Positions 12,005-34,319 of a stretch of DNA of 35,322 nt are shown piece by piece. Under the pieces are notes generated by a model, which made no database searches, was not told where the DNA came from, and worked only from the letters and a program-made list of their open reading frames with translations. The DNA is from an uncultured Bacteroidota bacterium (GTDB lineage: Bacteria; Bacteroidota; Bacteroidia; Chitinophagales; Chitinophagaceae): NCBI GenBank assembly GCA_903926605.1, contig CAIYJV010000381.1, positions 1 through 35,322 on the forward strand, in the 5' to 3' direction. Position 1 is the stretch's first letter; each line of letters starts with the position of its first letter. A program made the position numbers and the translations under genes.

Positions 12005-12068
12005 TGTGATTTTGTATTTTTATTATTATTAAATTTTGTTTTCCAGTTGTTCGGGTTTCGGGTGGGTG

Positions 12069-15619: not shown

Positions 15620-16875
15620 GACTCGGATAATTTGTTGCCCTGTCTCCCGGCACCGGTTTTTACAAATATTTTAGACTCGCCCGTAGGTGCAGTTTTTTCA
15701 ACAGTTGCTACCACTTTTTGTGGCGTCGCGGGTTTTTCTCCTTCCATTTCATCCACATAGCGGCTCACACTCAGGATAATTCCAATAGCCACACTGGTGA
15801 ACCAAATAGACGATCCGCCCATGCTCACCATAGGGAGCGTAAGGCCGGTAACGGGCACGAGGTGCACATTTACCGCCATATTGAGCATGGCCTGAAATAC
15901 CAGTGTGATGCTGAGCCCCACCGCAAGGAACGCCCCGAACGCATACGGGCACCGCCGGAAAATGTTGATGCTTCGCCACAGGAATATCAGATACAGAATC
16001 ACCATAGTGGCACCGCCCACGATACCGTATTCTTCAATAATGATGGCGTATATAAAATCTGAGTACGGATGAGGCAGATTGTTGCGCTGGCGGCTGTTGC
16101 CCGGGCCCAGCCCAAATACTCCACCATTGGCGATGGCTATTTTGGCCTGCTGCACCTGGTACACATCTTTATGTGGGGCGTCCTTGTCTTTGTGACCCAT
16201 AAAATCCTCAATACGCTGTTCCCAGGTCTTGGCCCTGCCGAAACCTGTGACTTTAGAAACCACGAACAACGCGGCTATACCCATTATGCCGATGCCGGCC
16301 AACACGAGCAGATGGGCCACCTTGATGCGACCAATATAGAACACAATGGAGCAGGTCACACCCAGCATGAGCGCTGTGGATAGGTTGGCCGGGGCTATGA
16401 GCGCACAGGTGAGCAGCATGGGAAGCAATACGGGGATAAATCCTTTTTTCCAGTCTTTTATTACGCCCTGCTTTGCACTGAGTGTGCGGGCAAGGAACAT
16501 GAAGAGTGCCAGCTTGGCAAGATCAGATGTTTGGAAGGTGAGGTTGATGATGGGCACCCTGATCCAGCGGGAGCCTTCGTTGAGGCTGGTTCCGAAAAAC
16601 AAGGTGTAGAACAGTAATGGCAGGCTGCACGCATAGGCTATCACCGCTATTTTGGCAAAACGGGTGTAGTTAACTTTATGAACCCAATAGGTGATCAGAA
16701 GGCCGAAAGCCAGCACCATGAGTTGCTTGATAAGATAGTAATTGGAATTGCGCGCCATGCGGTATGCAAGCGAACAGGTGGAGCTGTACACTACAAGCAG
16801 GCTTACCAGTGAGAGCAGCAGTACCACCCCCCAGATAACCTTATCTCCTTTTCCTTTTACGATCAGATCTTTCAT
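15616..16875 (-). CDS. ftsW: Septal peptidoglycan glycosyltransferase FtsW (SEDS family)
   Basis: FtsW polymerises lipid II at the division site together with its cognate PBP, here probably the FtsI encoded upstream. The 419-residue protein has about ten hydrophobic segments and SEDS motifs such as NEGSRWIRV, GLGPGNSRQRNNLPHPYSD and PVTGLTLPMVSMGGSS. A hydrophilic C-terminal extension of about 45 residues follows the last membrane segment. Its position between murD and murG, not next to mrdA, supports FtsW over RodA. It begins 5 nt after the murD stop and overlaps murG by 4 nt. Confidence 0.94.
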   Translation of the reverse strand: MKDLIVKGKGDKVIWGVVLLLSLVSLLVVYSSTCSLAYRMARNSNYYLIKQLMVLAFGLLITYWVHKVNYTRFAKIAVIAYACSLPLLFYTLFFGTSLNEGSRWIRVPIINLTFQTSDLAKLALFMFLARTLSAKQGVIKDWKKGFIPVLLPMLLTCALIAPANLSTALMLGVTCSIVFYIGRIKVAHLLVLAGIGIMGIAALFVVSKVTGFGRAKTWEQRIEDFMGHKDKDAPHKDVYQVQQAKIAIANGGVFGLGPGNSRQRNNLPHPYSDFIYAIIIEEYGIVGGATMVILYLIFLWRSINIFRRCPYAFGAFLAVGLSITLVFQAMLNMAVNVHLVPVTGLTLPMVSMGGSSIWFTSVAIGIILSVSRYVDEMEGEKPATPQKVVATVEKTAPTGESKIFVKTGAGRQGNKLSES

Positions 16876-16880
16876 TTCGA

Positions 16881-18236
16881 TTAAAGATTTCTAACAGCTT
16901 CTTTGAACTGATGACCACGGTCTTCAAAATTGTTGAAAAGATCAAAGCTGGCGCAGGCTGGCGAAAGGAGCACCACGTCGCCTTTGTCGGCAAACGCGTA
17001 AGCGGCCAGTACGGCATCATGCGCATTGTTAGTGTCAATTACATTGGGCACTGCGCTGTCGAATGCGGCATGAATGGCGGTGTTGTCCTTGCCCAGACAA
17101 ATAATGGCCTTGACCTTTTCTTTCACCAGGTTCAGGATCTCGCTGTAGTCATTGCCTTTGTCCTGACCACCCATTATCAGTACCACGGGTTTATCCATAC
17201 ACTCCAGCGCATACCATACCGAATTGAGGTTGGTGGCCTTGCTGTCGTTTATAAAGGTCACGCCGCGCACCTTGGCTACGAATTCCAGGCGGTGTTCCAG
17301 CCCCTCGAAGCCGGAGAATACTTCGCGCAATTTTTCCTTCCTAACTCTAACTACCATCGAAGAGATGCCCGCTGCCATACAATTATATTGATTGTGTTTT
17401 CCTTTCAGGGATAGATCATGAATGGACATGTCAAAACGCTCGCCTTCATAATTCAGGTGCATCTGCTCGTCGCGGATATTGCCGCCTTCGTTGTTTACTG
17501 TATTGTCCTCCATTGTGAATTGAATGGTTTTTGCGTTTGTGAAGTGTGTGGTCAGATAATTATTGATTGCCTGATCATCCTTGTTTATCACCAATACGTC
17601 GTTTGATGTCTGGTTCATGGTAACCCGGAATTTTGATGCTACATAGTTGTTGAAATCGTAATTGTACCTGTCCAGATGGTCGGGTGTGATGTTGAGCAGA
17701 ATGGCGACATCGGGTCTGAACTGATGTATATCGTCCAGCTGAAAGCTGCTGATCTCCATCACATACCATGCAGCTGGCTGCTCGGCTATTTTCCGTGCAA
17801 AGCTGTATCCGATATTGCCCACTAGTGCTGCATCCCTTCCGTCGGCTAGCATGATTGCATACATCAGCTTTGTGGTGGTGCTTTTGCCGTTACTGCCTGT
17901 AATGGCAATGATGCGGGAGTCGCCCTTGTAGCGATAGCCGAATTCTATTTCGCTGCAAACTTCTATACCTGCCTTGCGTACTGCCTTTACCATTTCAGCC
18001 TTTTCCGGAATGCCGGGGCTTTTTACAACACACTGTGCATTCAGGATCTTTTCGGGCGTATGACCCATTTCTTCAAACGGGATCTGATATTGCTCCAGGT
18101 CTTTCCTGAATTGTTCCTTGATCCGCCCCGCGTCTGACACAAAAACGTCCCAACCGCGCAGGCTGCCCAGAATGGCTGCGCCTACACCGCTTTCTGCGGC
18201 GCCCATAATTACGAGGCGTGGTTTAGACTGGTTCAT
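16881..18236 (-). CDS. murD: UDP-N-acetylmuramoyl-L-alanine--D-glutamate ligase
   Basis: MurD adds D-Glu to UDP-MurNAc-L-Ala with ATP in the cytoplasm. The 451-residue protein has the N-terminal nucleotide-binding GAAESGVGAA at residues 12-21, SPGIP near residue 73, the ATP loop TGSNGKST at 113-120, MEISSFQLD, LNITPDHLDRY and FINDSKATNLNS, all hallmarks of MurD. Length and motif order are normal. Its start overlaps the mraY stop by one base. Confidence 0.97.
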   Translation of the reverse strand: MNQSKPRLVIMGAAESGVGAAILGSLRGWDVFVSDAGRIKEQFRKDLEQYQIPFEEMGHTPEKILNAQCVVKSPGIPEKAEMVKAVRKAGIEVCSEIEFGYRYKGDSRIIAITGSNGKSTTTKLMYAIMLADGRDAALVGNIGYSFARKIAEQPAAWYVMEISSFQLDDIHQFRPDVAILLNITPDHLDRYNYDFNNYVASKFRVTMNQTSNDVLVINKDDQAINNYLTTHFTNAKTIQFTMEDNTVNNEGGNIRDEQMHLNYEGERFDMSIHDLSLKGKHNQYNCMAAGISSMVVRVRKEKLREVFSGFEGLEHRLEFVAKVRGVTFINDSKATNLNSVWYALECMDKPVVLIMGGQDKGNDYSEILNLVKEKVKAIICLGKDNTAIHAAFDSAVPNVIDTNNAHDAVLAAYAFADKGDVVLLSPACASFDLFNNFEDRGHQFKEAVRNL

Positions 18237-19507
18237 TATTGTATTTTTAGTGTTACGATACTGAGTATGGCCAGCATGATCCCTATGATCCAGAACCGGG
18301 TTACAATTTTTGCTTCATGGTATCCCTTTTTCTGAAAATGGTGGTGCAGTGGCGCCATCAGGAAAATCCTGCGACCTTCTCCGTATTTCTTTTTGGTGCG
18401 TTTAAAATTCCATACCTGTATCATCACCGAGAGGTTCTCGACCAGGAAAATGCCGCAAAAAATAGGTATCAGCCACTCTTTTCTCACGATGATGGCAAGA
18501 GAGGCGATAATTCCGCCCAGGGCCAGGCTGCCCGTGTCGCCCATAAACACCTGTGCGGGATAGGCATTGTACCAGAGAAAACCTACGCAGGCACCAATGA
18601 ATGCGCCGATGAAAATAGATAGTTCTCCCAGATTCGGAATGTCCATGATGTTGAGGTAGCCCGCAAACAAGTAGTTGCCCGACAGATAAGCGAAAAACCA
18701 GAGACAGACGCCTATAATACCAGACACACCGGTGGCTAGCCCGTCTATCCCGTCTGTGATATTGGCTCCGTTCGAGACCGCGACGATTATGATGATCACT
18801 ACCAAAACATACAATATTGGTGTGGTGATCTCCAGGTATTTTTCACCGAATACAGAGGCCAGTTTCGCATAAGCGAACTCATGAGACTTCACAAATGGTA
18901 TGGTGGTAGTAACGGTGCGAACATTTACATAATACTGATCTTTCCCGTTTTCATCTCTTCTTTTCTTAACGCCCGACTCCAGTTTTTCGGCTCTGTTGTG
19001 TATGCCCGTTTGTCCCGGCTGAATTTCCCGGCTTATCGTTACGTGATCGTTATAATAAAGGGTGAGGCCTACGATAATACCAAGTCCAACCTGCCCCATT
19101 ATTTTGAATTTTCCTGCCAGACCTTCTTTGTTCTTCTTGAAAACCTTTATATAGTCGTCCAGAAAACCTACAATACCCAGCCAGATAGTAGAAACCAGCA
19201 TCAGTACGATGTACACATTCAGAATCCGTGCAAACAACAGGGTGGGAATAAGTATAGCTGCGATAATGATAATGCCGCCCATTGTGGGGGTGCCCTTCTT
19301 CTGCGCCTCACCGGCAAGGCCCAGATCACGGATAGTTTCGCCTATCTGTTTCTTGCGCAGATAGTCAATCAGGCGTTTCCCCATCATCAAAGAAATAAAG
19401 AGGGACAACATTATGGCCAGCGCTGTACGGAAGGTGATATAGTTAAACAATCCCGCACCCATAAGGTGGAAATTGTCTCGTAGATATGTGAACAAATAGT
19501 ACAGCAT
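18236..19507 (-). CDS. mraY: Phospho-MurNAc-pentapeptide translocase (lipid I synthase)
   Basis: MraY transfers phospho-MurNAc-pentapeptide from UDP to undecaprenyl phosphate in the inner membrane. The 423-residue protein has many membrane segments, the family start GTPTMGG at residues 72-78, the catalytic aspartates in FLDDYIKV (Asp117, Asp118) and [12 protein letters not shown] (around 252-255), and the C-terminal [12 protein letters not shown] histidine motif. It is about 60 residues longer than E. coli MraY because of a hydrophilic insertion at about residues 155-215. Such an insertion fits the longer MraY proteins of Bacteroidota, to my knowledge. It starts 6 nt after murE. Confidence 0.97.
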
Positions 19508-19513
19508 CTGGTC

Positions 19514-20980
19514 TTACCTGTTTTGGGTTTCGAAAGCTTTTATTAATTCTTCATGGTCGTCAAAATGGTATTTCACTCCCTTTATCTCCTGATAGGTTTC
19601 ATGGCCCTTGCCCGCAACCAGAATAATGTCTGTCGGTTGTGCAAGCATACAGGCTGTTTTTATGGCTTCTTTCCGGTCGGTAATGCGCAGGTATTTGCGT
19701 TTTTGTGCGGCATTCAGCCCTGTCTCCATTTCGTCCAGTATGGCCTCAGGGTCTTCGCTCCTGGGGTTATCTGTAGTCAGGATCACTTTGTCTGAATGTG
19801 CTGCTGCCACTTCGGCCATTATAGGGCGCTTAGTGCGGTCCCGGTCTCCGCCACAACCCACAATGGTTATGAGCTGTTGTTTTCCGGAGCGCAATTGGTT
19901 TATAGTGGCCAATATGTTTATCAACGCATCGGGCGTGTGGGCATAGTCAATGATGCCCAGTATTTTGTCGGTTGGTGAGAAGTAGGTTTCAAATCGTCCC
20001 GCAGCTCCCGACAAACGGCTCAGCCCGGCAAGCGCATCCAGTTTGTCCACACCCAGCAGTACGGCTGTACCGTACACGGCCAGCAGGTTATAGGCATTGA
20101 ATGTACCAATGAGCCTGAAATGTGCTTCGTGATTGTCTACGTTCATAACCAGCCCGGAGAGCCCGTTTTCGAGCACCTTTCCTTTAAAGGTGGCAGGCAT
20201 TTTAAGGCTGTATGTATTTTTAGATGCTGCTGTGTTTTGCATCATTACCATGCCCCGTTTATCGTCGGCATTTACAAGTGCAAAGGCATCAGCGGCAAGG
20301 TGGTCAAAGAAGCATTTTTTTACACGTATGTATTCGTCAAATGTCTTGTGGTAATCCAGGTGGTCATGGGTGATATTTGTAAAGATGCCCCCCGCAAACC
20401 TGATTCCGGCGATCCGGTCCTGATGTATGGCGTGCGAGCTTACCTCCATGAACACATATTCACAACCCGCATCCGCCATCTGCCTGAAGAGTTCCTGTAT
20501 CGATACTGCATCGGGAGTGGTGTGGGTGGCTATTATTTCTTCCTCATCCACCATGTTTTTTACGGTGGATATAAGTCCGCATTTATAACCAAGGTCCTTG
20601 TGTAGTTTGTACAGCAGGGTAGCCGTGGTGGTTTTGCCATTCGTGCCGGTCACACCCACTACCTTCATGTTGCCAGAAGGATTGCCGTAGAAGTTGGCAG
20701 CAAGTATACCGGTAGCCGATGCGCTGTTTGTTACCACCACATAGGTTGTGCCCTCGCTGATGTGGTCGGGCATTTTTTCGCAAATGATGGTGCTGGCACC
20801 CAGCTCTTCTGCTTTTGTAATGAAGTTATGTCCGTCTGACAGGGTGCCCTTTACCGCTACGAAAGCCCATCCGGCTGCCGCTTTGCGGGAGTCAATACAT
20901 ATCCCGGTCACCCGAATATCGGTTGCGCCCTTTATTTTTAAAGGGGTTATTCCGGTCAATATGTCGTTTAGCTTCTTCAT
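19514..20980 (-). CDS. murE: UDP-MurNAc-L-Ala-D-Glu--2,6-diaminopimelate ligase
   Basis: MurE adds the third stem-peptide residue using ATP. The 488-residue protein contains the uridine-site SRKAAAGWAF region near residue 31, the ATP loop TGTNGKTT at 111-118, TTPDAVSIQEL, MEVSSHAIHQDR, NITHDHLDYH and DYAHTPDAL. The motif DNPRSEDP at residues 404-411 is the signature of meso-diaminopimelate-specific enzymes; Lys-adding MurE has a different sequence there. It starts by overlapping the ftsI stop by one base. No murF follows, unlike in E. coli, where murF sits between murE and mraY. Confidence 0.97.
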   Translation of the reverse strand: MKKLNDILTGITPLKIKGATDIRVTGICIDSRKAAAGWAFVAVKGTLSDGHNFITKAEELGASTIICEKMPDHISEGTTYVVVTNSASATGILAANFYGNPSGNMKVVGVTGTNGKTTTATLLYKLHKDLGYKCGLISTVKNMVDEEEIIATHTTPDAVSIQELFRQMADAGCEYVFMEVSSHAIHQDRIAGIRFAGGIFTNITHDHLDYHKTFDEYIRVKKCFFDHLAADAFALVNADDKRGMVMMQNTAASKNTYSLKMPATFKGKVLENGLSGLVMNVDNHEAHFRLIGTFNAYNLLAVYGTAVLLGVDKLDALAGLSRLSGAAGRFETYFSPTDKILGIIDYAHTPDALINILATINQLRSGKQQLITIVGCGGDRDRTKRPIMAEVAAAHSDKVILTTDNPRSEDPEAILDEMETGLNAAQKRKYLRITDRKEAIKTACMLAQPTDIILVAGKGHETYQEIKGVKYHFDDHEELIKAFETQNR

Positions 20981-23070
20981 TAGCTTAACTGTAATATTAT
21001 ATTTTGCCCTTTTACCACGCGCGTACCCGCTTCAATAGACTGGCTCGCTACCTTGCCCTTGCCTTGTACCGTTACCTGCATTCCACTGTTTTCAAGTATA
21101 TACACTGCGTCTTTCAGTCCCATTCCGGTAACGTCCGGTACCAGGTTGCGGAACATCTTAGCCGGTTCTACAGCAAGATGTCGGGTGCTGTCGGTGCGCA
21201 GTTGCATCATCATGTTCATCGCGTCTACGGGAGTAACACTGTGTTTGCGAAGGGCACTGAGTAGTATCTGGTAGCTGTGTGCTGTAGCCAGTTTGGCAGG
21301 TAGCAGGTTGTTTGCGGTGCGTGCCAGACTATCCAGCGGACCATCCCAGGCGCCCATGTTGGCAGAAAATATTTTGTCGGCAACCATTCTGAACACCGGG
21401 GCTGCGATCGCGCCGCCGTAATAGGCTGCAGAATGCGGTTTGGTGCGTATCACCACACAAATCGTGTAGCGGGGTTCCGTAGCTGGTATGAATCCCACGA
21501 ATGAACCCTGATAAACACCGGATGAGTATTTTATGGCGCCATCGGATACCTGCGCTGTTCCCGTTTTGCCCGCCATAGTATAGTAAGGAGATTGTATCCC
21601 TTTGGCCGTACCTTCGGTAACCACAGCGCTTACGCATTTGTTCACCTGCGCCAGCACTGTTGAATCTGCTATCGTGGCCACGACCTCTGGTTGAAAAACC
21701 TTTACATCCTTGCCGTATTCACGGATAGAATTTACGAGGTAGGGTTTTACCATTTTCCCTTTATTGGCAACTGCGTTGTAGAGCATGCAAGTGTGCAATG
21801 GGGTTACTTGTATGCCATATCCTGTGGCCATCCACGGTAGGGAGGTAGCACTCCATATTTTGCTGTCGGGTGTGTTCACCACGGGTGGGCGTTCGCCGGG
21901 CAGGTCAATTCCGGTTTTTACGTTCAGATGAAACTGTTTCAGGTGGTCGGTAAACTGACTCGGATGTTCCCTGTAATACATATAGGCAAGCTTGGCAAAG
22001 GCCGCATTGCTCGACTCTGCGTATGCTTTCCATATCGGTATAGGTCCCAGTCCCAGGTGAGAATCCTTCATTACCCTGTTGCCAAACCGTATTTTCCCGC
22101 CTTCCGGGTCAATGATCTGTTCTACGTTTGTTTTTCGGTCATTGAGTATGGATAGCAATGTCACGAGTTTGAAGGTAGAGCCGGGTTCGGTGGGGCTCAT
22201 GGCGTAGTTAAAGTCTTCAAAGTAAGAACCGTCAGACTGCCGGCCCAAATTTACAAGGGACCTTATCTTGCCGGTGTTCACCTCCATTACGATGCAGGTT
22301 CCATAAGTGCATTCGTATTTCTCCAGAACGCTCATCAGTGCATGTTCGGCTACGTCCTGTATGTTGATGTCTATTGTTGTCACAACGTCCTTCCCGTTTT
22401 GCGGGTCGATCTCTGTACCCTCGATCGCTATCCAGTTATTGCCGGTAGATTTGCGCAACATTCTTCGCCCATTCTCGCCGGTCAGGTATTTGTCGTAAGC
22501 GCGTTCTATACCTGTTTTATTGCTGTCGCGAAACATGCCAATTGTGCGTAGTCCTACCATGGCGTATGGCATGGTTCTTTTTTCCTGCGGGTCTGCGATC
22601 AGACCGCCACGGGCCTTGCCTTTATTAAAGATCGGGAACGACCTGAGTGTTTCATACTGGTTGTACCTCAGCTTTTTCTTTAGCAGGAAGTAGCGGTCTT
22701 CTTCATTGTAAGCCCTTATGAAATCTTCTTTGTATTCTGTGGATGACTTGTCAAGGAAAAGTCCCGCCAGACACAACGACAATGTATCTATATTCTTGTT
22801 GAACAGCGCTGAGTCCATTACTGAAAAGTCGACGTGTACATCAAACTCAGGGATCGACGTGCTCAGCATGGTCCCGTCTTCTGTATAGATATTACCACGT
22901 TCAGCGATCAGCGTGTCGAAGCGGGTCTGTAGTTCCCTTGCTTCGGCGCGCAGCTTCGGTCCTTCCTTTACCTGTATCATTATCGCTTTCATAATGATAG
23001 CGATGCCAAACAGGCAGATGAAAGTAAAAGCCATGTAAACCCTGAATCGTATGTCCTTTTTAACATCCAT
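20980..23070 (-). CDS. ftsI: Division-specific transpeptidase FtsI (PBP3) with PASTA domain
   Basis: This 696-residue class B penicillin-binding protein crosslinks septal peptidoglycan. It has one N-terminal membrane segment (about residues 14-33), a dimerisation domain with AERGNIYTEDG near residue 57, and a transpeptidase domain with the active-site EPGSTFK (Ser298, Lys301), the SSN motif at 353-355 and AGKTGTAQ at 501-508. A single PASTA domain ends the protein (about 640-696, PDVTGMGLKDAVYILENSG). A PASTA tail is absent from E. coli FtsI but is common in Bacteroidota and Gram-positive relatives. It is 22 nt downstream of the ftsL-like gene. Confidence 0.96.
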   Translation of the reverse strand: MDVKKDIRFRVYMAFTFICLFGIAIIMKAIMIQVKEGPKLRAEARELQTRFDTLIAERGNIYTEDGTMLSTSIPEFDVHVDFSVMDSALFNKNIDTLSLCLAGLFLDKSSTEYKEDFIRAYNEEDRYFLLKKKLRYNQYETLRSFPIFNKGKARGGLIADPQEKRTMPYAMVGLRTIGMFRDSNKTGIERAYDKYLTGENGRRMLRKSTGNNWIAIEGTEIDPQNGKDVVTTIDINIQDVAEHALMSVLEKYECTYGTCIVMEVNTGKIRSLVNLGRQSDGSYFEDFNYAMSPTEPGSTFKLVTLLSILNDRKTNVEQIIDPEGGKIRFGNRVMKDSHLGLGPIPIWKAYAESSNAAFAKLAYMYYREHPSQFTDHLKQFHLNVKTGIDLPGERPPVVNTPDSKIWSATSLPWMATGYGIQVTPLHTCMLYNAVANKGKMVKPYLVNSIREYGKDVKVFQPEVVATIADSTVLAQVNKCVSAVVTEGTAKGIQSPYYTMAGKTGTAQVSDGAIKYSSGVYQGSFVGFIPATEPRYTICVVIRTKPHSAAYYGGAIAAPVFRMVADKIFSANMGAWDGPLDSLARTANNLLPAKLATAHSYQILLSALRKHSVTPVDAMNMMMQLRTDSTRHLAVEPAKMFRNLVPDVTGMGLKDAVYILENSGMQVTVQGKGKVASQSIEAGTRVVKGQNIILQLS

Positions 23071-23092
23071 TTTTTATCAGACTGCGCTTGTG

Positions 23093-23458
23093 TTACTGTT
23101 TTTTGCTGGTGTCTACTGTTATTTTATATGCCGGAAGCAATGAGGGTTGAAGTCCCAGTCGTTTCGCGTTGTTTATTACTTGTGTTTCTGTCTTTACATA
23201 CATGAGCTGCGATTTGATGTCCAGGTATTTCCACCTCATTTCTTTCAGCATATTGTTCTGTACATTCAGTTGTCTTTGCAATTCGTTTGCCCTGTGGCTG
23301 TTGCTGATATAAAAAATACAGAGCACGGCCAGGAACATCAGAAAGGGCATATTGCTCACGATCGCTTTGTAAGACAACTTGTCCACGAGTGCCTGCCAGT
23401 CGCTTTTCACCCGTTGCGCGGGTGTCATGGTCTCCTGTATGTTGTTGTCCTGTTCCAT
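23093..23458 (-). CDS. ftsL: FtsL-like bitopic division protein
   Basis: This 121-residue protein has a hydrophilic N-terminus (35 residues), a single membrane segment at about residues 36-53 and a periplasmic helix with coiled-coil character (ANELQRQLNVQNNMLKEM), ending with AKRLGLQPSL. This is the plan of FtsL, which forms a complex with FtsB and FtsQ and activates FtsWI. Primary sequence similarity to FtsL is too low to see by eye, so the call rests on topology and on position between rsmH and ftsI. It starts directly after the rsmH stop. Confidence 0.85.
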   Translation of the reverse strand: MEQDNNIQETMTPAQRVKSDWQALVDKLSYKAIVSNMPFLMFLAVLCIFYISNSHRANELQRQLNVQNNMLKEMRWKYLDIKSQLMYVKTETQVINNAKRLGLQPSLLPAYKITVDTSKKQ

Positions 23459-24367
23459 TTATATTTTTTCAGCCACCCTTAGTTTCGCACTACGCGACCG
23501 TGGGTTTCTTCTCAGTTCTTCTTCCGTAGCTTCTATAGGCTTCGGTGTTATCATTTTTACTAGCGGTGTCACCCGTTGAGCGGTCAGTGGGTTGGTTTCC
23601 GTGCTTACCCCGCCAGACTTCATGAACTGCTTCACGATCCGGTCTTCCAGCGAGTGGAACGAAATGACACAAAGCCTTCCGCCGGGATTCAGATACTTTA
23701 CCGACTGCTCCAGCAGATCATTCAGTGCTCCGAATTCGTCATTCACTGCTATACGCAGCGCTTGAAAAACCTGTGCCAGATACCGGTTTGCCGGACCCTT
23801 CATCACTGGTTCTATCATTGCTTTCAGCGACTCTACAGTATTCAGTTTTACTGATTTTCGCTGAGTGGCGATTTGCTTTGCCAGTTGTTTCGAGTTGCGA
23901 ACCTCGCCGTATTTTTCAAAGAGCAAATGAAGCTGGGCTTCGGTCAATTCTGTTAACACACTGGCAGCCGTCTTCTCATTCCGCTTGTCCATTCTCATGT
24001 CCAGAGGGCCTTCAAACCTTGTGGAGAAGCCTCTTTCAGCTGTGTCGAATTGATAAGAGCTCACTCCCAGGTCTGCAAGTATTCCGTCAATGGCAGTGAT
24101 GCTGTGCAGTCTGAGAAATCGGTTCAGATACCTGAAGTTTTCTTTTACCAGCGTCACGCGGGCGTCGTCGGGTTTGTTTTTCCAGGCATCTTCGTCCTGG
24201 TCAAACACTACCAGCCGCCCTTGTTTGCCCAGTTGGTTCAGAATAGCCCTGCTGTGTCCACCGCCGCCAAAGGTGGCGTCCACATAAGTGCCCGATTCGC
24301 GGATACATAGTCCGTCTATCGCTTCATGCAAAAGAACCGGTTCGTGATAGAAAACTGGATTCGCCAT
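23459..24367 (-). CDS. rsmH: 16S rRNA (cytosine(1402)-N(4))-methyltransferase
   Basis: RsmH (MraW) methylates N4 of C1402 in the 16S rRNA decoding site using S-adenosylmethionine. The 302-residue protein starts YHEPVLLHEAIDGL, has the SAM-binding DATFGGGGHSRAIL near residue 30, VFDQDEDA, ILADLGVSSYQFD, RGFSTRFEGPLDMRMD and the C-terminal ISFHSLEDRIVK followed by NPRSRSAKLRVAEK. All are typical for the family and the length is normal. It starts 5 nt after mraZ. Confidence 0.97.
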   Translation of the reverse strand: MANPVFYHEPVLLHEAIDGLCIRESGTYVDATFGGGGHSRAILNQLGKQGRLVVFDQDEDAWKNKPDDARVTLVKENFRYLNRFLRLHSITAIDGILADLGVSSYQFDTAERGFSTRFEGPLDMRMDKRNEKTAASVLTELTEAQLHLLFEKYGEVRNSKQLAKQIATQRKSVKLNTVESLKAMIEPVMKGPANRYLAQVFQALRIAVNDEFGALNDLLEQSVKYLNPGGRLCVISFHSLEDRIVKQFMKSGGVSTETNPLTAQRVTPLVKMITPKPIEATEEELRRNPRSRSAKLRVAEKI

Positions 24368-24372
24368 ACTGT

Positions 24373-24840
24373 TTAAGATTTAGTCTGGTTATCCGGTTTT
24401 TTACCCATTACTGTTTTCCCAAGTTTGCTATAGTTGTCTGCGTTCTTGTTCAGGAAGTTATAGTAGGTCTCTCTGTCCCACAGTTCCAGTTTGTTGCCCA
24501 TACCTCTCAAAACCGCGTCTTTTTTTATATGGGCGGTTTCCTGCAGGTTTTTCGGGATCAGGATCCTGTCAGCGCTGTCCACCGCTACTTTGGTGGCACC
24601 ACTCAGGAAGAGTCGCTTAAAAGTTACCGCATCTTCGTCGTAGTCATCCAGTTCCAAAACCTCGGCCAGTCTTTTATTCCAGGTCTCGAGTGGAAACACA
24701 TTCAGGCAACCGTTAAATCCGCGGTTCAATACAAAACAATCACCCTCGCCGTTTTCGAACAGCTTCCGCAGATCGGCGGGCAAAAGGCATCTGCCTTTTG
24801 CATCCATGGTGATCTCGTATTCTTCGTAGAGGGGTGTCAT
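24373..24840 (-). CDS. mraZ: Transcriptional regulator MraZ, first gene of the dcw cluster
   Basis: MraZ is a DNA-binding protein of the AbrB-like double-psi fold that represses its own operon in the bacteria studied. The 155-residue protein has two copies of the MraZ repeat, each with the DxxxR motif: DAKGRCLLP at residues 13-21 and DSADRILIP at 88-96. Length is normal. The start is the first gene of the thirteen-gene cluster. G-rich repeats suitable as an MraZ operator lie about 47-68 nt upstream of the start codon. No clean -33/-7 promoter could be seen, although TTATTTTG (plus 24877-24884) is close to a -7 element. Confidence 0.96.
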   Translation of the reverse strand: MTPLYEEYEITMDAKGRCLLPADLRKLFENGEGDCFVLNRGFNGCLNVFPLETWNKRLAEVLELDDYDEDAVTFKRLFLSGATKVAVDSADRILIPKNLQETAHIKKDAVLRGMGNKLELWDRETYYNFLNKNADNYSKLGKTVMGKKPDNQTKS

Positions 24841-26821: not shown

Positions 26822-27835
26822 ATGGAATTATATCTTGATTCAGCCAACCTGAAAGAAATCGAAGAAGGATTTAAATTGGGTTTTCTCAACGGGCTTACCA
26901 CTACGCCTACATTCATGCAGCGCGAGGGTATTACCGATATAGACGGCATGATCGTTAAATTGTCGAAGATGGTGCCGGTGCTGCAGATCGAAGCACTGGG
27001 CAATACGGCTGAAGAAGTGGTAAAGGAAGCGCGCCGCCAACTGGACCTTGGTCTGGACCCGAACCGTACCGTGTTTAAGATACCCGTGTCGCTCGAAGGT
27101 GTTCGTGCCTGTCATCTGCTGCGTAAAGAAGGTTTGCTGGTCAATGTGCACCTGGTGTATACACTTCAGCAGGCATATATGGCTATGCACGCTGGTGCTA
27201 CCTATGTGTGTCCGCTTGTGGGCAGGCTGCAGGATCAGGGTCATGATGCGCTGGCACTGGTGAGCCAGTGTGTGGAGGCAGTGAATTTTTATGGTTACCA
27301 GACCAAGATCATGTTCAGTTCTGTTCGTAACGCAGAGCATGTGCGCAATGCAATTAATCTGGGCGTGCACACCATTACTGTTCCTTTGAAGATATTGAAA
27401 ACGCTTACCGACAATAATTTTACCACACTGGGTACAGAGCAGTTCCTGAGCGATACGCGCCTGATGACAGTGCGTGTACGCGAAGCGATCAACTCCATAA
27501 ACCCCGTTGTGAAATCGTCTGCAAACCTCAAGGATGCAATCGTAAAGATGACGGAATTTGGGTTCGGTTCCATCACCGTGGTTAATGACAACGGCGAAGT
27601 AATGGGCGTGTTCACAGACGGAGATCTGCGCAGATTGTTGCAGGCTGACGGCGAACACATACTGTCTAAAAAACTGGCAGAGCTTACTTATAAGACTCCA
27701 ATTAGTATAGACGGTGGTGTATTGCTGAACGAGGCTGCCCTGTTGTTTAAGAAAACAAACGTGGATACGATCCTGGTAACAGAGAACGGCAAACCTGCCG
27801 GGATGCTGGACATACAGGATTTGAAAAACGACTAG
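26822..27835 (+). CDS. Transaldolase-family barrel fused to a CBS domain pair
   Basis: Residues 1 to about 217 are a TIM barrel of the fructose-6-phosphate aldolase/transaldolase family. MELYLD at the start includes Asp6, and VFKIPVSLEG holds Lys86, which aligns with the Schiff-base Lys85 of E. coli FSA. Other FSA active-site positions differ: TTNPS is TTTPT (Asn28 to Thr), Thr109 is His and Tyr131 is Leu. Residues 218-337 are a tandem CBS pair with GFGSITVVNDNGEVMGVFTDGDLRRLL, very like the CBS pair of arabinose-5-phosphate isomerase KdsD. The gene leads an operon with a KdsC-like phosphatase and kdsB, where KdsD would be expected. I infer a sugar-phosphate aldolase or isomerase-like enzyme feeding Kdo or a related ulosonate, with CBS ligand control. 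The true reaction is unknown. Confidence 0.85.
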   Translation: MELYLDSANLKEIEEGFKLGFLNGLTTTPTFMQREGITDIDGMIVKLSKMVPVLQIEALGNTAEEVVKEARRQLDLGLDPNRTVFKIPVSLEGVRACHLLRKEGLLVNVHLVYTLQQAYMAMHAGATYVCPLVGRLQDQGHDALALVSQCVEAVNFYGYQTKIMFSSVRNAEHVRNAINLGVHTITVPLKILKTLTDNNFTTLGTEQFLSDTRLMTVRVREAINSINPVVKSSANLKDAIVKMTEFGFGSITVVNDNGEVMGVFTDGDLRRLLQADGEHILSKKLAELTYKTPISIDGGVLLNEAALLFKKTNVDTILVTENGKPAGMLDIQDLKND

Positions 27836-27921
27836 GCGTTCGTCTGGTATATTTATTGGCCGGAACAGTAGGAGCTGCGCCCGGAAATGACATAATCCTG
27901 TTCATTGCAATCTACTGGCTA

Positions 27922-28623
27922 ATGGCAAATGACCCTTTACGGATACAAGAACTTTTTAAAGGCGAATTCCTTACCGATGCGGAGGAGATAGCATCGCGTC
28001 TGTCTTCCATTCGTGCATTTTTGTTCGATTGGGATGGCGTATTCAACAATGGGGTCAAGCAGCCCAACAACTCTAGTTCGTTTAGCGAAATAGACTCGAT
28101 GGGCACCAATATGCTGCGGTTCAGTCATTATCTGCGGCATGGTACGGTGCCTTATACCGCCATTATTACCGGCGAGCAAAATGAGGATGCCGTAAAGCTG
28201 GCCGGCAGAGAGTGTTTCGATGCGGTATATACCGGCATCAAGCACAAACAGGATGCGCTTTTGCACCTGCGGCGAGAGCAAGGTCTGGAGGCCAGAGAAA
28301 TCGCATTCATGTTCGACGATGTACTCGATCTTTCGGTTGCAGGAGAGGTGGGGCTTCGTTTTATGGTTGGCAGGCAAAGTAGCCCGATGCTGACGCGTTA
28401 TACCCGTAGCAGGGGCTTGGCCGATTATGTCACAGCCGCTCCGGGGTCCGGGTTCGCAGTTCGGGAGGTTTCCGAGCTTTTGATCTCACTCAATGGCAAT
28501 TTTGACGAAACCATTTCAAATCGGGTGGCCTATTCAGATAATTACAGACAGTACTTGTCGCACAGAAATGCTAACGATGTAAAATTTTATACCCTTACAA
28601 ACGCAACAATTACGCTTCAATGA
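27922..28623 (+). CDS. KdsC-like HAD phosphatase (Kdo-8-phosphate or related ulosonate phosphatase)
   Basis: The frame is open from a TTG at 27856, but ATG 27922 gives a 233-residue protein that begins without a stray hydrophobic stretch, so I chose it. HAD motifs are FLFDWDGVFNNG (Asp36, Asp38), IITGEQ (Thr83), GIKHKQDAL (Lys109) and FMFDDVLDLSVAGEVGL (Asp132, Asp133). The segment ending FAVREVSELLI is typical of the KdsC group. KdsC removes the phosphate from Kdo 8-phosphate; relatives act on nonulosonate 9-phosphates. The protein is about 50 residues longer than E. coli KdsC, with extra residues at both ends. It overlaps kdsB by 4 nt (ATGA), so coupling to CMP-sugar formation is clear. Substrate remains open. 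Confidence 0.85.
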   Translation: MANDPLRIQELFKGEFLTDAEEIASRLSSIRAFLFDWDGVFNNGVKQPNNSSSFSEIDSMGTNMLRFSHYLRHGTVPYTAIITGEQNEDAVKLAGRECFDAVYTGIKHKQDALLHLRREQGLEAREIAFMFDDVLDLSVAGEVGLRFMVGRQSSPMLTRYTRSRGLADYVTAAPGSGFAVREVSELLISLNGNFDETISNRVAYSDNYRQYLSHRNANDVKFYTLTNATITLQ

Positions 28624-29369
28624 TCATCGGTATTATTCCAGCCCGGTACGCTTCCACGCGCTTTCCCGGTAAGGCGCTCGCACCTGTTTTAGGCAAAAGC
28701 ATGATACAACGGGTTTATGAACAGGCTGCCAAAAGCACCAGTTTATCAGCGCTCGTGGTGGCAACAGACGATGCCCGGATCTACGATCATGTACTGGCAT
28801 TTGGGGGCACTGCTGTAATGACGGCCACAGGCCACCCAAGCGGCACTGACCGGTGCTGGGATGCCCTGAAGCAACAGCATGGGAAGTTCGATTATGTCAT
28901 CAATATCCAGGGCGACGAGCCATTTATAGAACCACAGCAAATAGATGAACTTGCGGCAGCGTTGAAAGACGGCACTGTAGAAATTGCCACGCAAATGATA
29001 GCTGTGAACAGTCATGAACTGCTGTTCGATCTGGGCGAGGTAAAGATTGTATTAAATGATAAGAATGAGGCACTTTACTTCAGCAGAATGGTCATTCCCT
29101 ATGTCAAGGGTGTACATGAACGGGAGTGGCACCTGCATCATCGGTATTACAGGCATGTGGGTATGTATGCTTATCGCAGGGATATTCTGGAACAAATAAC
29201 CAGATTGCCTGTTTCAGGCCTGGAGAAGGCCGAGTCACTCGAACAACTCAGGTGGCTCGAAAACGGCTTCCGGATCAAGTGTGCACTTACCGGTTACGAA
29301 AGTCATTGTATTGATACGCCAGAGGATGTAGACAAAGTACTGGCCCTTGTTTTCGCAGGCAAACACTGA
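28620..29369 (+). CDS. kdsB: 3-deoxy-manno-octulosonate cytidylyltransferase (CMP-Kdo synthetase)
   Basis: KdsB activates Kdo with CTP to CMP-Kdo in the cytoplasm, ready for transfer to lipid A. The 249-residue protein has the nucleotide-binding IIPARYASTRFPGKAL at residues 5-20, VVATDD, TGHPSGTDRCWDA, INIQGDEPFIEP, and YFSRMVIPYVKG, then HVGMYAYRRDIL and LEKAESLEQLRWLENG, all matching KdsB at normal length. Closely related CMP-KDN or CMP-Kdo8N synthetases cannot be excluded by eye. It is the last gene of its operon and is followed by a strong terminator. KdsA is not in the window. Confidence 0.93.
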   Translation: MIIGIIPARYASTRFPGKALAPVLGKSMIQRVYEQAAKSTSLSALVVATDDARIYDHVLAFGGTAVMTATGHPSGTDRCWDALKQQHGKFDYVINIQGDEPFIEPQQIDELAAALKDGTVEIATQMIAVNSHELLFDLGEVKIVLNDKNEALYFSRMVIPYVKGVHEREWHLHHRYYRHVGMYAYRRDILEQITRLPVSGLEKAESLEQLRWLENGFRIKCALTGYESHCIDTPEDVDKVLALVFAGKH

Positions 29370-29444: not shown

Positions 29445-32400
29445 TTACCGTACCAGTGTTACTTCGCCCTTTTCAGTTAACGTCTTGCCATCGCAGTCAT
29501 AACTAAGCAGGTAGTAATAGGTGCCAATTTCCTGAGGTACGCCATTGAATGTGCCGTCCCAGCCATTTTTGTTTTTAACAGTTTCAAATACGGTTTGTCC
29601 CCACCTGTTCATTACACGGAAAATGTGAATGCCGTGGGTGCCGATGCCAACAGGTCTGAAAATATCATTCAGGCCATCGTTGTTGGGTGAGAAGGCATTA
29701 GGCATGCTTACCAGGCAGCAGGGTTGTGCGTTCACCATCACGCTGTCAGTGGCCGTACAACCAAACTGATCCCTGACTGTCAGCCACACATAACCCGCTC
29801 TTTCTATTGTACCATATACCGTTCCAATGTTGTTTTGTTCAAAATAATGCACAGGCGACCAATAGTAACTGTAGTTCGGGTCCTGGCTTCCGGCCCGGAG
29901 CATCACGCTGTCTCCGGTACACAATGAAGTACCATTGCCATTCAGGAAAATAGGATCCAGAATGTTGGCAGCCGGATAGTTATGCACCAGGATCGTATCC
30001 TGTGCACTAAGGCTCGGACATAAAACGGTTGCGTTACCGGTTACAGAAATGTAATAAGTGCCGGCCCCTGTCCATGAAACAAAATAGGGTCCGAAGGTGT
30101 TAGAACTTGCCACGATCACGTTTGCGCTGCCCCAGTGCCAGTTATAGCTGGTAATGTTCGGGCTGTTGGCAGTCAGTTCTACTTTTACAGTGTCTCCGAT
30201 ACACACATTGGGGTTTACATAGAACGAAACCTTTGGCGCTGTTTGTATGGTGTCCGATCCTGTAACCAGACATCCGGTTGGCAACGTATAAGTAATATTA
30301 AAAGTACCGAATGCGATACCGGTGAGTATTCCGGTTGATGCGTCAATAGTAGCTGATGTCGGATTGTCGCAATACCAGGTTCCGCCCGCCATTGCATCTG
30401 TAAGGGTCTCCGAAGCTTGCGTACAAAGTGATGTAAGTCCGGTGATGGCGGGAGGGTTAGGGTCAATTGTAACCACTGTGATCGCGTTACAGCCAGCCAC
30501 GGTATAAGTCACATTGCAAGTGCCTGCGACCAGACCGGTAACAAGACCTGTGGTACCATTTATGGTTGCGGTAGACGGTGTGCCGCTTACCCAGGTTCCG
30601 CCTTGTATGGTATCAGTCAGCAATCCGGTAGCGCCTTCGCACATTTCTTTTTTACCTCCGATATTTCCCGGCAGGGCATTGATAAATAGGGTTGCCGTAA
30701 TGTAGCAGCCAAAGGAAGATGTATAAGTAACGACAACCGATCCGTTCGATACGCCTGTAACAAGTCCTGAAGAAGGGTCTATCGTAGCAATAGCAGTGTT
30801 GTTACTACTCCACGAGCCACCGGAAAGTGCATCGTACACATATGCTGTAGATCCGACACAAACAGATGTGGCACCGCTGATTGCAGGTGGTGTAGAGTTT
30901 ACAGTAAAGTTGGCAGTATTCACACAACCTGCACCGGACGTATAGCTTATTTGTACCGTACCACCTGAGTTGCCTGTTACAACTCCAGCGGCATCTACCG
31001 ATGCCACGGCGGGGTTGCTGCTCAGCCATCCGCCTCCTGTTGTAGCGTCGGCAAGCGTGGCCGTATAGCCCTGACACACAGATAATGTACCGGTAATGGG
31101 ATCTGGCAGCGGATTTACCACAACATTGATAGTTGAAACACAGCCTGCAGTAGTGGAATAAGTCATGGTAGCATTGCCGGCAGAGAATCCGGTTACGCTG
31201 CCTGAAGACGCACCTACGCTTGCAATAGTGCTGCTGGTTGTTGACCAGGTTCCGCCGGTTGGTGATGCCGAGAGTGCTACTGTATTTCCCACACATACCG
31301 CAGTGGTACCTCCAAGAGTGGGCAATGCAAGTACGGTGAGCGTCGCTGTTGCAGCGCAGCCTACGGAATTGGTGTAAGTAATAGAAGAGGTACCTGCTGA
31401 CAAACCTGATGCGACACCTGTTGTGGCGCCGATTGTCGCTACAGATGTGTTGCCACTGGACCAGGTTCCTGCACCGCCTGCATCGGCGAGTGTGGTGGTC
31501 GAGGCCACGCAAACAGAGAGCGTACCCGTTATGGGGGCTACAGGGTTAACGTTTACTACCATCGTCTTGTAGCAACCTGCGCCTGTCTGGTAGGTAATAG
31601 TGGTGGTGCCACCGGAAACACCGGTCATAGCACCTGTAGTTGCATCAATGGTGGCAACGCCGGTTGCACTGCTGCTCCATGTGCCACCCGCAGTGGCATC
31701 GGTTAGCGTTGTGGTCTGTCCGGCACAGATCGTAGTCAATCCGGCAATGGCGGCCACATCACTCACTGTAACCGTAGTGGTTGTGGTACAACCTGCCGTT
31801 GTTACGAATGTTATAGTTGTAGTACCCGCTGAAACCCCGGTTACTAGACCGGTTGTAGATATGGTAGCCACGGCTGTATTGCTGCTTGACCATGTTCCTG
31901 CGCCCGCCGCATTGGCGAGTGGGGTGGTGCCGCCAGCGCAAACACTGGTAATGCCCGTAATGGGTTGCAGGTCGTTCACGGTAATTGTGGCAGTGGTCGA
32001 GCAACCTGCTCCGGTTGTAAACGTAATGGTAACTGTGCCTGCGGCTACTCCTGTCACTACACCGGTAGATGTAACCGTCGCAATAGCTGTATTGCTGCTG
32101 GTCCAGGTTCCGGCTCCAGCGGCATCAGCAAGTGTAATGGTAGAACCCGCGCAAACCGCTGTGGGACCTGTAATAGGCGACAATAGGTTTACAGTTACGG
32201 TAATGGTAACCACGCAGGCACCGCCAAGTGAATAAGTGATAGTTGTTGTGCCAGAAGCCACAGCAGTCACTACGCCGGTTGCAGAAATCGTGGCAACTGC
32301 AGTGTTGCTGCTTGTCCAGGTTCCACCGGCTGTAGCATCACTAAGTGTAGACGTAGAGCCTACGCAAAGTGTGGTCGTGCCTGTGATGGCAGACGGGAGC

Positions 32401-34319
32401 GGTGTCACCGTAACCACCATGGTGGCGTAACAGCCTGTTGATGTAGTGGTATAAGTGATTGTAGCCGTACCTGCCGAAACGCCGGTGACTACACCTGCTG
32501 CTGTAACTGTGGCAACGCCGGTGTTACTGCTCGTCCAGGTATGTGCGCCGGCAGTTGCATCTGCAAGCGCCGTGGTGTTACCCACACACACTGTGGGTGT
32601 GCCAGTGATCGGTGCCTCGGTTATTACTGTGATTGTCCTGGTTCCTGTTGCAGTGATACCGCAGGCATCAGTAATTGTAAGTGTATAAGTAGTGGTAGCT
32701 GTAGGCGATACGGTTACTGGTGACCCTGATACAGGACCCGGAGTCCAGCTAAACGTGTAAGGAGGTACACCATAAATACCTGTGCCGGTAAGTGTGGTTG
32801 ATGCGCCCGAACAGATTGAGGTTGCAGAAGCAGTTGCAGACACAAACTCTACTGTATGACCAATAACCGTGATAACCAATGGCGTTGTAGCATAAATATA
32901 CGTTGTGGCACATGCAGCCGCAGGGGCTGTCATTTGGTAAAAGTCCATCGTCAGGTTCAGGTTGTAAGAAGGGCACTGTGGGGGTGGTATACATGCTGCC
33001 AGATCCGCAAGAATAGTATATGCGGCTCCGCCGGTGCCGGTACAGCTGCCGGGGGCAAAAGTGAGGCTGCAACACCAATAGAATCCGGTAGTCCCAGTGG
33101 GGCCTGTGGGGCTGCGGCAGGTTCCTTTACGGAAGTCAACTGCGCCATCCGATACCCAGGCAATACTGTTCGTGGCAAACGAAAATGCCCATTGTATGTC
33201 AGTTATTGTGATGTTCGCAGGTACTGTTGCGGGATTGCTGTACACACAAGGTACAGTCCAGTCAGTACTGTAAGATGATCCGGTAACGGCAGAATTTGTC
33301 GCAAGTGAAACCAGCGGATCAATGATCACGGGGTAGGCACTTGCGCCACGATTCAGAAAATTACCGGGCAATTCAATATCAAGCGTATTCCCGTTAATGC
33401 GGTAGTTAAGCATTTCCACGGTCTCTTTAACGTTTGCTTTTTCGCATGCTGATGCAGCAGACATATCAAAAATTTTCTCACCCGCGCTGTTTCTTACTTC
33501 CATATTCCCGGCAAAAGTGGTCTGGCCAGATGCGTAAAGCGTCATGCCCTTGTCCATTACCAGATGGTCACGTACCAACAACTTGCCATCAGCGTATTCA
33601 GGCAATGCGTGATTAATAAGGAAATTTGTCTTAACAGCACCGCGTATCACATACATTTCTATGTCTACGCCCGGCCATGCATTGGTTACATATATGCCCT
33701 CTTCACCAGCGGTGTAGCTGGTCCAGTTGGCATTGCCCAATGATTGTTCCGTGCCATCTGGTTTTACGTAAATAAGTTCAAGATTATTGTTATAGCGAAA
33801 GCCCATACCTTCTTTGCCTATAGAAACCACACCTTGTCTGGTATCTATACTTATAGGCGCAGGTTGTTCGTATGCGGCGTATACGCCTGGTTTTTTATTG
33901 TCGGGTTCCAGCAGGGTCCGAATTGTGCGCCAGTTACCTTTTTCGTCTTTATAATGAATGGGAGCCGATGCGGTTTGTGTATAGATATCCGTGCCGTTCG
34001 TTCCTTTTTTTACAAAGGTTTTGTTGATCTCGGTACGTTTGCTCAGTATTTCAAAGCAATCGCCTTCTGGCGCTCCTTCCCACTTCATCCCTATTTCCGG
34101 GTGGTTTTCGTAGCCCCTGTTGGCCATCAGCACCTCGTCTGACCGGTCCACTTTTCTTTCGGAAAAAGTTTTATAATTTCTCATTCCCACAGCCGCCGGA
34201 TTGTTCTTTGCCGAAACCATATGCGGCTGTGCGCGCATTGCAGACTGTCCGGAGGCGGAGTTGGTGAAGCACGCCATAAAGGCGGCAGCCAGAAATAAAA
34301 AATGGTAGTAGTGTTTCAT
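29445..34319 (-). CDS. Large surface protein: eleven Ig-like repeats and type B T9SS sorting domain
   Basis: The 1624-residue protein starts with a signal peptide (MKHYYHFLFLAAAFMACFTNSASGQ, given here only as a boundary near residue 25). A unique N-terminal region of about 480 residues follows, including YPVIIDPLVS. A PKD/Ig-like module lies at about 490-567. Residues 568-1360 hold eleven Big_2-like repeats of about 72 residues. Two more Ig-like modules follow, and MPNAFSPNNDGLNDIFRPVG at 1539 opens the gliding-motility-type C-terminal domain of about 86 residues. That last domain is the type B sorting signal of the type IX secretion system. The protein should be exported to the cell surface as an adhesin-like or structural fibre; no enzymatic domain is visible. 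It is monocistronic, ending at the shared terminator. Confidence 0.88.
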   Translation of the reverse strand: MKHYYHFLFLAAAFMACFTNSASGQSAMRAQPHMVSAKNNPAAVGMRNYKTFSERKVDRSDEVLMANRGYENHPEIGMKWEGAPEGDCFEILSKRTEINKTFVKKGTNGTDIYTQTASAPIHYKDEKGNWRTIRTLLEPDNKKPGVYAAYEQPAPISIDTRQGVVSIGKEGMGFRYNNNLELIYVKPDGTEQSLGNANWTSYTAGEEGIYVTNAWPGVDIEMYVIRGAVKTNFLINHALPEYADGKLLVRDHLVMDKGMTLYASGQTTFAGNMEVRNSAGEKIFDMSAASACEKANVKETVEMLNYRINGNTLDIELPGNFLNRGASAYPVIIDPLVSLATNSAVTGSSYSTDWTVPCVYSNPATVPANITITDIQWAFSFATNSIAWVSDGAVDFRKGTCRSPTGPTGTTGFYWCCSLTFAPGSCTGTGGAAYTILADLAACIPPPQCPSYNLNLTMDFYQMTAPAAACATTYIYATTPLVITVIGHTVEFVSATASATSICSGASTTLTGTGIYGVPPYTFSWTPGPVSGSPVTVSPTATTTYTLTITDACGITATGTRTITVITEAPITGTPTVCVGNTTALADATAGAHTWTSSNTGVATVTAAGVVTGVSAGTATITYTTTSTGCYATMVVTVTPLPSAITGTTTLCVGSTSTLSDATAGGTWTSSNTAVATISATGVVTAVASGTTTITYSLGGACVVTITVTVNLLSPITGPTAVCAGSTITLADAAGAGTWTSSNTAIATVTSTGVVTGVAAGTVTITFTTGAGCSTTATITVNDLQPITGITSVCAGGTTPLANAAGAGTWSSSNTAVATISTTGLVTGVSAGTTTITFVTTAGCTTTTTVTVSDVAAIAGLTTICAGQTTTLTDATAGGTWSSSATGVATIDATTGAMTGVSGGTTTITYQTGAGCYKTMVVNVNPVAPITGTLSVCVASTTTLADAGGAGTWSSGNTSVATIGATTGVASGLSAGTSSITYTNSVGCAATATLTVLALPTLGGTTAVCVGNTVALSASPTGGTWSTTSSTIASVGASSGSVTGFSAGNATMTYSTTAGCVSTINVVVNPLPDPITGTLSVCQGYTATLADATTGGGWLSSNPAVASVDAAGVVTGNSGGTVQISYTSGAGCVNTANFTVNSTPPAISGATSVCVGSTAYVYDALSGGSWSSNNTAIATIDPSSGLVTGVSNGSVVVTYTSSFGCYITATLFINALPGNIGGKKEMCEGATGLLTDTIQGGTWVSGTPSTATINGTTGLVTGLVAGTCNVTYTVAGCNAITVVTIDPNPPAITGLTSLCTQASETLTDAMAGGTWYCDNPTSATIDASTGILTGIAFGTFNITYTLPTGCLVTGSDTIQTAPKVSFYVNPNVCIGDTVKVELTANSPNITSYNWHWGSANVIVASSNTFGPYFVSWTGAGTYYISVTGNATVLCPSLSAQDTILVHNYPAANILDPIFLNGNGTSLCTGDSVMLRAGSQDPNYSYYWSPVHYFEQNNIGTVYGTIERAGYVWLTVRDQFGCTATDSVMVNAQPCCLVSMPNAFSPNNDGLNDIFRPVGIGTHGIHIFRVMNRWGQTVFETVKNKNGWDGTFNGVPQEIGTYYYLLSYDCDGKTLTEKGEVTLVR
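30240..32618 (-). repeat. Eleven tandem coding repeats of about 216 bp (Ig-like domains)
   Basis: Each unit encodes about 72 residues on the plan ITG-x5-VCxGxTxTLxDAxAGGTWSSSN, then TATIxxxTGxVTGVSAGTxTITY and a GC near the end. Two cysteines per unit recur at fixed positions. Units two to four are the most alike, for example in TWTSSNTAVATIS, suggesting recent duplication. The repeats are uninterrupted in frame. Confidence 0.9.

Follow-up and report, generated by a model that had tools for sequence, protein, structure and literature searches.

To our knowledge, arabinose 5-phosphate (A5P) isomerase, KdsD, is treated as the committed bacterial route into 3-deoxy-D-manno-octulosonate (Kdo), the sugar by which lipopolysaccharide is anchored to the outer membrane, and the locus described here raises the question of what takes its place in a bacterium in which this enzyme is not found. 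The locus lies in a 35,322-nt stretch of DNA (the window, meaning the whole stretch that was analysed) from an uncultured Bacteroidota bacterium of the Chitinophagaceae (GCA_903926605.1, contig CAIYJV010000381.1), in which three genes form a tight set on the plus strand:

26822–27835, plus strand: fusion of a transaldolase/fructose-6-phosphate aldolase (FSA) barrel (residues ~1–212) and a KdsD-type CBS pair (residues ~218–334), 337 amino acids; proposed KdsD replacement
27922–28623, plus strand: KdsC-like HAD phosphatase; the mechanical open reading frame (ORF) opens with TTG at 27856, the likely start being the ATG at 27922
28620–29369, plus strand: KdsB, CMP-Kdo synthetase, which passes curated cut-offs and overlaps the preceding stop by 4 bases

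The initial annotation had placed the fusion first, followed by a KdsC-like phosphatase and KdsB, an arrangement borne out by the ORF calls and profile matches, and had read the fusion as a KdsD whose SIS domain was exchanged for an aldolase barrel. There is good evidence that KdsD has been replaced by the fusion in this lineage, and we hold this view with considerable confidence on the basis of the absence of KdsD, the near-exclusion of the two proteins across genomes, the KdsD-like CBS pair and a Kdo operon in which the fusion lies beside kdsA. The fusion is a new variant of the known Kdo pathway for which we found no description in the open-access literature; among the matches listed, the titles and abstract openings of open-access PMC articles named no transaldolase–CBS protein and no aldolase in Kdo synthesis.

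Domain architecture and active site of the fusion

Residues 3–201 of the fusion match PF00923 (TAL_FSA; E 9.5e-35, 120.8 bits vs a Pfam gathering score of 27), and profile searches place two PF00571 CBS stretches C-terminal to this barrel. Together with the CBS comparisons given below, these matches establish computationally the proposed joining of an aldolase barrel to a KdsD-like CBS pair. Residue conservation was assessed over 84 distinct fusion sequences, obtained from 92 strongly matching loci and including that of the window, and the best 80 of 254 relatives are full length with 78–86% identity. A chance or broken reading frame, or a local sequence error, is excluded by the 84 distinct full-length relatives. 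Structural modelling, which the initial annotation had put forward as a check, gave an AlphaFold2 model from 35 family members (mean predicted local distance difference test score, pLDDT, 87; predicted template modelling score, pTM, 0.58) with the barrel fold expected, all 50 Foldseek matches listed being transaldolases or FSA.

The fusion resembles members of the transaldolase/FSA family (T. maritima 1vpx, E. coli FSA) in its barrel fold, in ~36% identity to 1vpx and in Asp6 and Lys86, but differs from them in carrying CBS domains, in having Thr, His and Leu in place of FSA Asn28, Thr109 and Tyr131, and in missing the FSA equivalog cut-off (TIGR00875; 161.3 bits vs 245.95). In the numbering of the fusion itself the replaced positions are Thr28, His110 and Leu132 (the initial annotation, which had pointed out both the kept and the replaced residues, cited FSA numbers), and these residues, like Asp6 and Lys86, are invariant in all 84 distinct sequences. 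The same holds for Glu57, Arg135, Ser166, Ser167 and Arg169; we take the conserved arginines to be phosphate-binding, as in the transaldolase/FSA family. According to PMC13259622, Asp6 and Asn28 of FSA contact the donor, and the catalytic water is held by Gln59, Thr109 and Tyr131, the last of which is the main proton shuttle. Since Lys86 and Asp6 are kept while FSA positions 28, 109 and 131 differ, the barrel has probably retained Schiff-base chemistry, while its donor pocket and proton relay have changed. Besides the fusion, the host genome encodes an ordinary transaldolase that has the usual residues, and the fusion is therefore not the housekeeping enzyme.

The C-terminal part is related to A5P isomerases. 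KpsF and KdsD models match the fusion solely over residues 215–334, no SIS domain was found in the protein by Pfam profile search, and its TIGR00393 score is 61.5 vs a cut-off of 203.7. When the CBS pairs of 10 fusions were compared with the available CBS proteins, a KpsF/KdsD protein came out nearest in all 10, and the three nearest solved sequences are all KdsD CBS pairs. Modelled on its own (pLDDT 87, pTM 0.72), the CBS pair has A5P isomerase CBS pairs as its five best fold matches (Klebsiella, Methylococcus and E. coli; three entries). The motif G-x-x-TDGDLRR occurs in 53 of the 84 distinct fusions and in 9 of 11 KpsF proteins; over all loci examined, with overlapping loci counted twice, it was detected in 97 of 10,487 frames, comprising 68 fusions, 16 frames with an SIS pattern and 13 in loci chosen for KpsF. 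The fusion therefore shares with KdsD, KpsF and GutQ a C-terminal CBS pair, in sequence and predicted fold, and an occurrence alongside KdsA, but unlike these proteins it has an aldolase barrel with a Schiff-base lysine in place of the SIS domain.

Distribution of the fusion and KdsD

No SIS-type KdsD was found in the host genome (97% complete) with a kpsF-type search, and KdsA is present there on another contig (C359; 325 bits vs a TIGR01362 cut-off of 314). An SIS-type kdsD elsewhere in this genome had been named beforehand as the contrary finding. The four SIS matches over the Pfam cut-off fall in three other proteins, namely GlmS, a phosphoglucose/phosphomannose isomerase and GmhA, and a hidden KdsD was rejected on these grounds, two weaker matches (12.5 and 11.5 bits) not having been pursued. 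The SIS protein of the window, likewise considered as a KdsD candidate, is GmhA:

556–1134, minus strand: GmhA, the sole SIS-domain match within the window; a context gene outside the system

It is possible that a KdsD gene was missed because of the incompleteness of the host assembly. A fusion-bearing genome that consists of a single contig (G531) likewise yielded no KdsD.

Across 298 genomes of the order, the fusion (E <= 1e-60), KdsD (E <= 1e-25) and KdsA (E <= 1e-40) were detected in 9, 211 and 227 genomes, respectively, where the long lists of the order-wide KdsD and KdsA searches, as of the phylum-wide fusion search, are read among the matches listed. All nine fusion genomes have KdsA, and the 227 KdsA-bearing genomes divide into 201 with KdsD only, 8 with the fusion only, 1 with both and 17 with neither. 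In the host family (f1; 85 genomes), 76 genomes encode KdsD only, 7 the fusion only, 1 both and 1 neither (Fisher p 1.3e-8 for this family, uncorrected for shared ancestry). The earlier expectation that the fusion excludes KdsD holds for the 82 of 84 KdsA-bearing genomes of this family that have exactly one of the two, but fails for the genome with both (G499).

The full fusion was found in 5 of the 296 genomes of a phylum sample, and below these five the identity falls, among the matches listed, from 70% to at most 38% and covers the barrel only. KdsD was searched in 24 chosen genomes of this sample: fusion genomes from two other families (G146 and G190) are without KdsD, which is present in 7 of 7 tested relatives there that do not have the fusion. 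Counting both samples, 10 of 11 fusion genomes are without KdsD and one has both. The possibility that the fusion is itself the Kdo synthase was rejected, as each of the nine fusion genomes of the order has one KdsA match.

Fusion-bearing contigs were also encountered in assemblies filed as Azovibrio restrictus (L037) and Saccharibacteria (L084), which are probably misbinned Bacteroidota.

Genomic context and 8-amino-Kdo genes

Neighbouring genes were counted on the same strand and within 8 kb for the 62 of 80 fusion loci that have at least 3 kb on either side, and comprise those for a KdsC-like phosphatase (49 loci), KdsB (45), KdsA (41), KdnA-like and KdnB-like proteins (37 each), a WaaA-like protein (18) and a short-chain dehydrogenase/reductase (SDR; 5). 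Many relatives share the operon kdnA-kdnB-kdsA-fusion-kdsC-like-kdsB, and the fullest order is waaA, kdnA, kdnB, kdsA, fusion, kdsC-like, kdsB (L152), the WaaA-like protein of which matches PF04413 with 160.5 bits and its best NCBIfam equivalog with 176.8 bits vs a cut-off of 438. In the host, kdnA, kdnB and kdsA lie together on contig C359, away from the fusion.

In 8 of the 11 context loci examined for KdsD, its gene is flanked by recQ on one side and a mannose-1-phosphate guanylyltransferase gene on the other, and no kds gene could be recognised in the vicinity; in two genomes (G299 and G546) kdsD and kdsA are at most 3.5 kb apart. An SDR gene adjoins the native kdsA in 9 of 13 loci from KdsD genomes, and one is likewise found next to the fusion cluster in 4 of the 10 context loci; this shared neighbour provides a hint that the replacement occurred in place.

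Host KdnA matches the solved 8-amino-Kdo (Kdo8N) enzyme 5k8b over its full length with 434.8 bits (next best 171.1), and host KdnB matches 5k8c, also full length, with 417.7 bits, followed by the iron alcohol dehydrogenase 3rf7 (388.4) and then by a match of 80.2 bits. Because of these full-length matches, fusion-bearing bacteria are predicted to carry, probably, 8-amino-Kdo. The host is thus similar to the Shewanella Kdo8N pathway (KdnA 5k8b, KdnB 5k8c) in encoding full-length homologues of both enzymes beside kdsA, whereas Shewanella presumably uses an ordinary KdsD, unlike the fusion genomes.

KdsB of the window scores 303.7 bits vs a cut-off of 193 (NF003952) and 198.8 vs 155.2 (TIGR00466). 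The phosphatase reaches 40.2 bits vs the KdsC cut-off of 106.95 (TIGR01670) and, being below KdsC cut-offs, is called KdsC-like only; among solved sequences a KdsC comes closest to it (E 5.5e-11), and 9 of 9 aligned sequences have DWDGV and FDD motifs, which we take to carry the HAD catalytic aspartates.

Proposed role of the fusion

We propose that KdsD has been replaced by the non-orthologous fusion at the step that leads into Kdo synthesis. Lys86 of the barrel could form a Schiff base with a small donor, which would then be added to a phosphorylated aldehyde to yield an aldose phosphate, and KdsA would join this product to phosphoenolpyruvate. As the most likely reaction we infer the conversion of glycolaldehyde and D-glyceraldehyde 3-phosphate (GAP) to D-arabinose 5-phosphate. 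The CBS pair would probably sense CMP-Kdo, which we take to be the ligand of the A5P isomerase CBS structure 4o9k, or CMP-8-amino-Kdo, and throttle the enzyme, while KdsA, the KdsC-like phosphatase, KdnB and KdnA, KdsB and WaaA could subsequently carry the sugar to lipid A. We favour, with modest confidence, this reading of the fusion as a class I aldolase, probably feedback-regulated, that displaces KdsD and makes A5P, probably from these two substrates.

Transaldolase/FSA-family aldolases join donor and aldehyde with the D-threo pattern of fructose, and A5P corresponds to fructose 6-phosphate minus C1, so a glycolaldehyde donor and a D-GAP acceptor give exactly A5P. The conserved arginines of the barrel would fit GAP, the change of Asn28 to Thr is one that a donor without a hydroxymethyl arm would allow, and a KdsD-type CBS pair would fit the control of a committed step. 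There is also a biochemical precedent: in PMC6298115, FsaA and FsaB of E. coli are reported to favour glycolaldehyde as the donor and GAP as the acceptor, a combination that yields A5P. PMC6298115 and PMC9947464 describe designed A5P pathways that use E. coli FSA paired with KdsD or GutQ for the conversion of A5P to ribulose 5-phosphate. The reaction proposed for the fusion is the same, but those pathways are engineered and run from A5P to ribulose 5-phosphate, whereas the fusion is a natural gene that would serve Kdo synthesis.

More tentatively, and with some doubt that all parts hold together, we propose a natural, feedback-controlled and carbon–carbon bond-forming entry into Kdo-type sugars, in which an aldolase makes A5P from two small aldehydes, in place of the isomerisation of ribulose 5-phosphate, and a KdsA with a remodelled sugar site and a variant phosphatase lead on toward 8-amino-Kdo. 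If true, such an aldolase bypass would break the A5P-isomerase rule for Kdo and would give a reaction that has hitherto been used in designed pathways a natural counterpart. It would also clearly illustrate how an enzyme can change its catalytic domain and yet retain the regulatory one.

Contrary observations and alternative explanations

Several observations weigh against the proposed A5P synthesis by the fusion. Genome G499 encodes the fusion and KdsD together, along with a single KdsA bearing a KDNRSS motif and no canonical KdsC that could be found; its KdsD contig may be foreign. The 17 KdsA-bearing genomes of the order with neither KdsD nor the fusion (10 in family f67, 7 in others) must have another source of KdsA substrate, and other answers to A5P supply therefore exist; a diverged fusion in these genomes was considered and rejected, as all 17 genomes gave barrel matches of at most 36% identity with no CBS joined to the barrel. 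No source of enough free glycolaldehyde was found, and transaldolases accept many substrates. Finally, the partner KdsA is altered, with Ala47 replaced by Asp and Arg106 by Met (Aquifex numbering) in 60 of 60 distinct fusion-linked sequences and in 0 of 42 from loci without the fusion, which is unexpected if KdsA simply takes A5P.

The KdsA comparison drew on 80 fusion-linked matches, of which the 76 that cover the KANRS motif all read KDNR (KDNRSN in the host), while KANR is the reading in all 45 sequences compared from loci that lack the fusion. The latter were drawn from the 30 best-scoring matches, 13 chosen loci and one other, and weakly scoring KdsA proteins (e.g. those of G436, G315, G412 and the 17 genomes with neither gene) were left out. 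The complete differences between the 60 and 42 sequences also include those at Ser54 (to Tyr), Lys125 (to His), Gln188 (to Arg) and Pro190 (to Tyr), and Lys46, Asn48 and Arg49 are kept in the fusion-linked set. The alanine of the KANRS motif and Arg106 are normally fixed sites. One solved KdsA chain in the alignment has Gly at position 106, and this residue has therefore been studied by mutation.

The altered KdsA bears on the different ulosonate that the initial annotation had raised as an alternative. In the form considered here, the aldolase, the variant KdsA and the KdsC-like phosphatase would jointly make a different aldose and from it a different ulosonate, or the phosphatase would act ahead of KdsA, whose substrate would then be an unphosphorylated sugar. 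Three early enzymes do depart from the norm together: at E <= 1e-15 the KdsC-like phosphatase is present in 9 of the 298 genomes of the order, exactly the nine that have the fusion, and canonical KdsC (at least 84 bits) is missing in 7 of the 11 fusion genomes, the exceptions being G515, G146, G190 and G430, whereas in all 17 genomes tested that lack the fusion it scores no less than 97 bits. We nevertheless consider this alternative unlikely, since KdsB passes Kdo cut-offs, KdnA and KdnB match solved Kdo8N enzymes, and neither Arg49 in KdsA nor the HAD motifs in the phosphatase have been lost. It is further weakened by a control genome outside the order and from another family (G249; a single contig of 7.03 Mb), in which a similar variant KdsA occurs alongside an ordinary KdsD (320 bits). 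The operon kdnA-kdnB-variant kdsA-kdsC-like-kdsB of this genome (locus L252, 6165–11103) has 116 bases between kdsA and the kdsC-like gene and no fusion there, and no fusion with CBS was found in the genome above reporting level, the best match being a barrel of 36% identity. Its KdsA shares 75% identity with KdsA of the fusion type and has the motifs KDNRSS and LCMQ, making it an exception to the pairing of Asp and Met with the fusion, and its KdsC-like phosphatase is a 37-bit match of 238 residues; no second KdsA was found near KdsD or canonical KdsC, the rest of the genome not having been searched. G249 thus shows that the variant KdsA and the phosphatase can also occur in a genome where the fusion was not found, and the two look like parts of an 8-amino-Kdo operon that could be fed by either KdsD or the fusion. 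KdsD and the fusion thus appear interchangeable, which favours A5P as the product of the fusion, and G249 offers a natural comparison with a like downstream operon and KdsD in place of the fusion.

Two further explanations leave A5P as the precursor of Kdo. The barrel could make it without free glycolaldehyde, either by C2 epimerisation of ribose 5-phosphate through a lysine imine or by retro-aldol cleavage and re-addition within the site. The two pentose phosphates differ at C2 only, the Schiff-base lysine is kept, two FSA residues that belong to the water and proton-transfer network (Thr109 and Tyr131) are replaced by His110 and Leu132, and the problem of glycolaldehyde supply would be removed; we know of no precedent in the transaldolase/FSA family, however, and regard such an activity as improbable. 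Less probable still, to the point of being a minor concern, is that the fusion is a CBS-tuned transaldolase and that A5P comes from another enzyme, for instance GlmS acting on ribulose 5-phosphate. GlmS is present in the host, the genomes with neither KdsD nor the fusion would be explained, and PMC11301363 reports that trypanosomatid, yeast and human GFAT complement an E. coli A5P-isomerase mutant and that the human enzyme converts ribulose 5-phosphate to A5P in vitro. However, the host has its separate ordinary transaldolase, the changed donor-site residues are invariant among fusions, and GlmS would leave both the near-exclusion of KdsD and the operon unexplained.

Neighbouring genes in the window

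The Kdo genes are adjoined by a cluster of division and cell wall genes that runs from mraZ to ftsZ (8829–24840, minus strand). On their other side, a gene for a 1624-residue protein (29445–34319, minus strand) converges on kdsB; the protein has a type 9 secretion type B sorting domain and, as judged by eye, repeated stretches. An RND efflux permease is split over two plus-strand ORFs (4426–6036 and 6033–7658) that overlap by 4 bases and match RND_permease_2 positions 3–491 and 512–1008, representing either a natural split or a frameshift.

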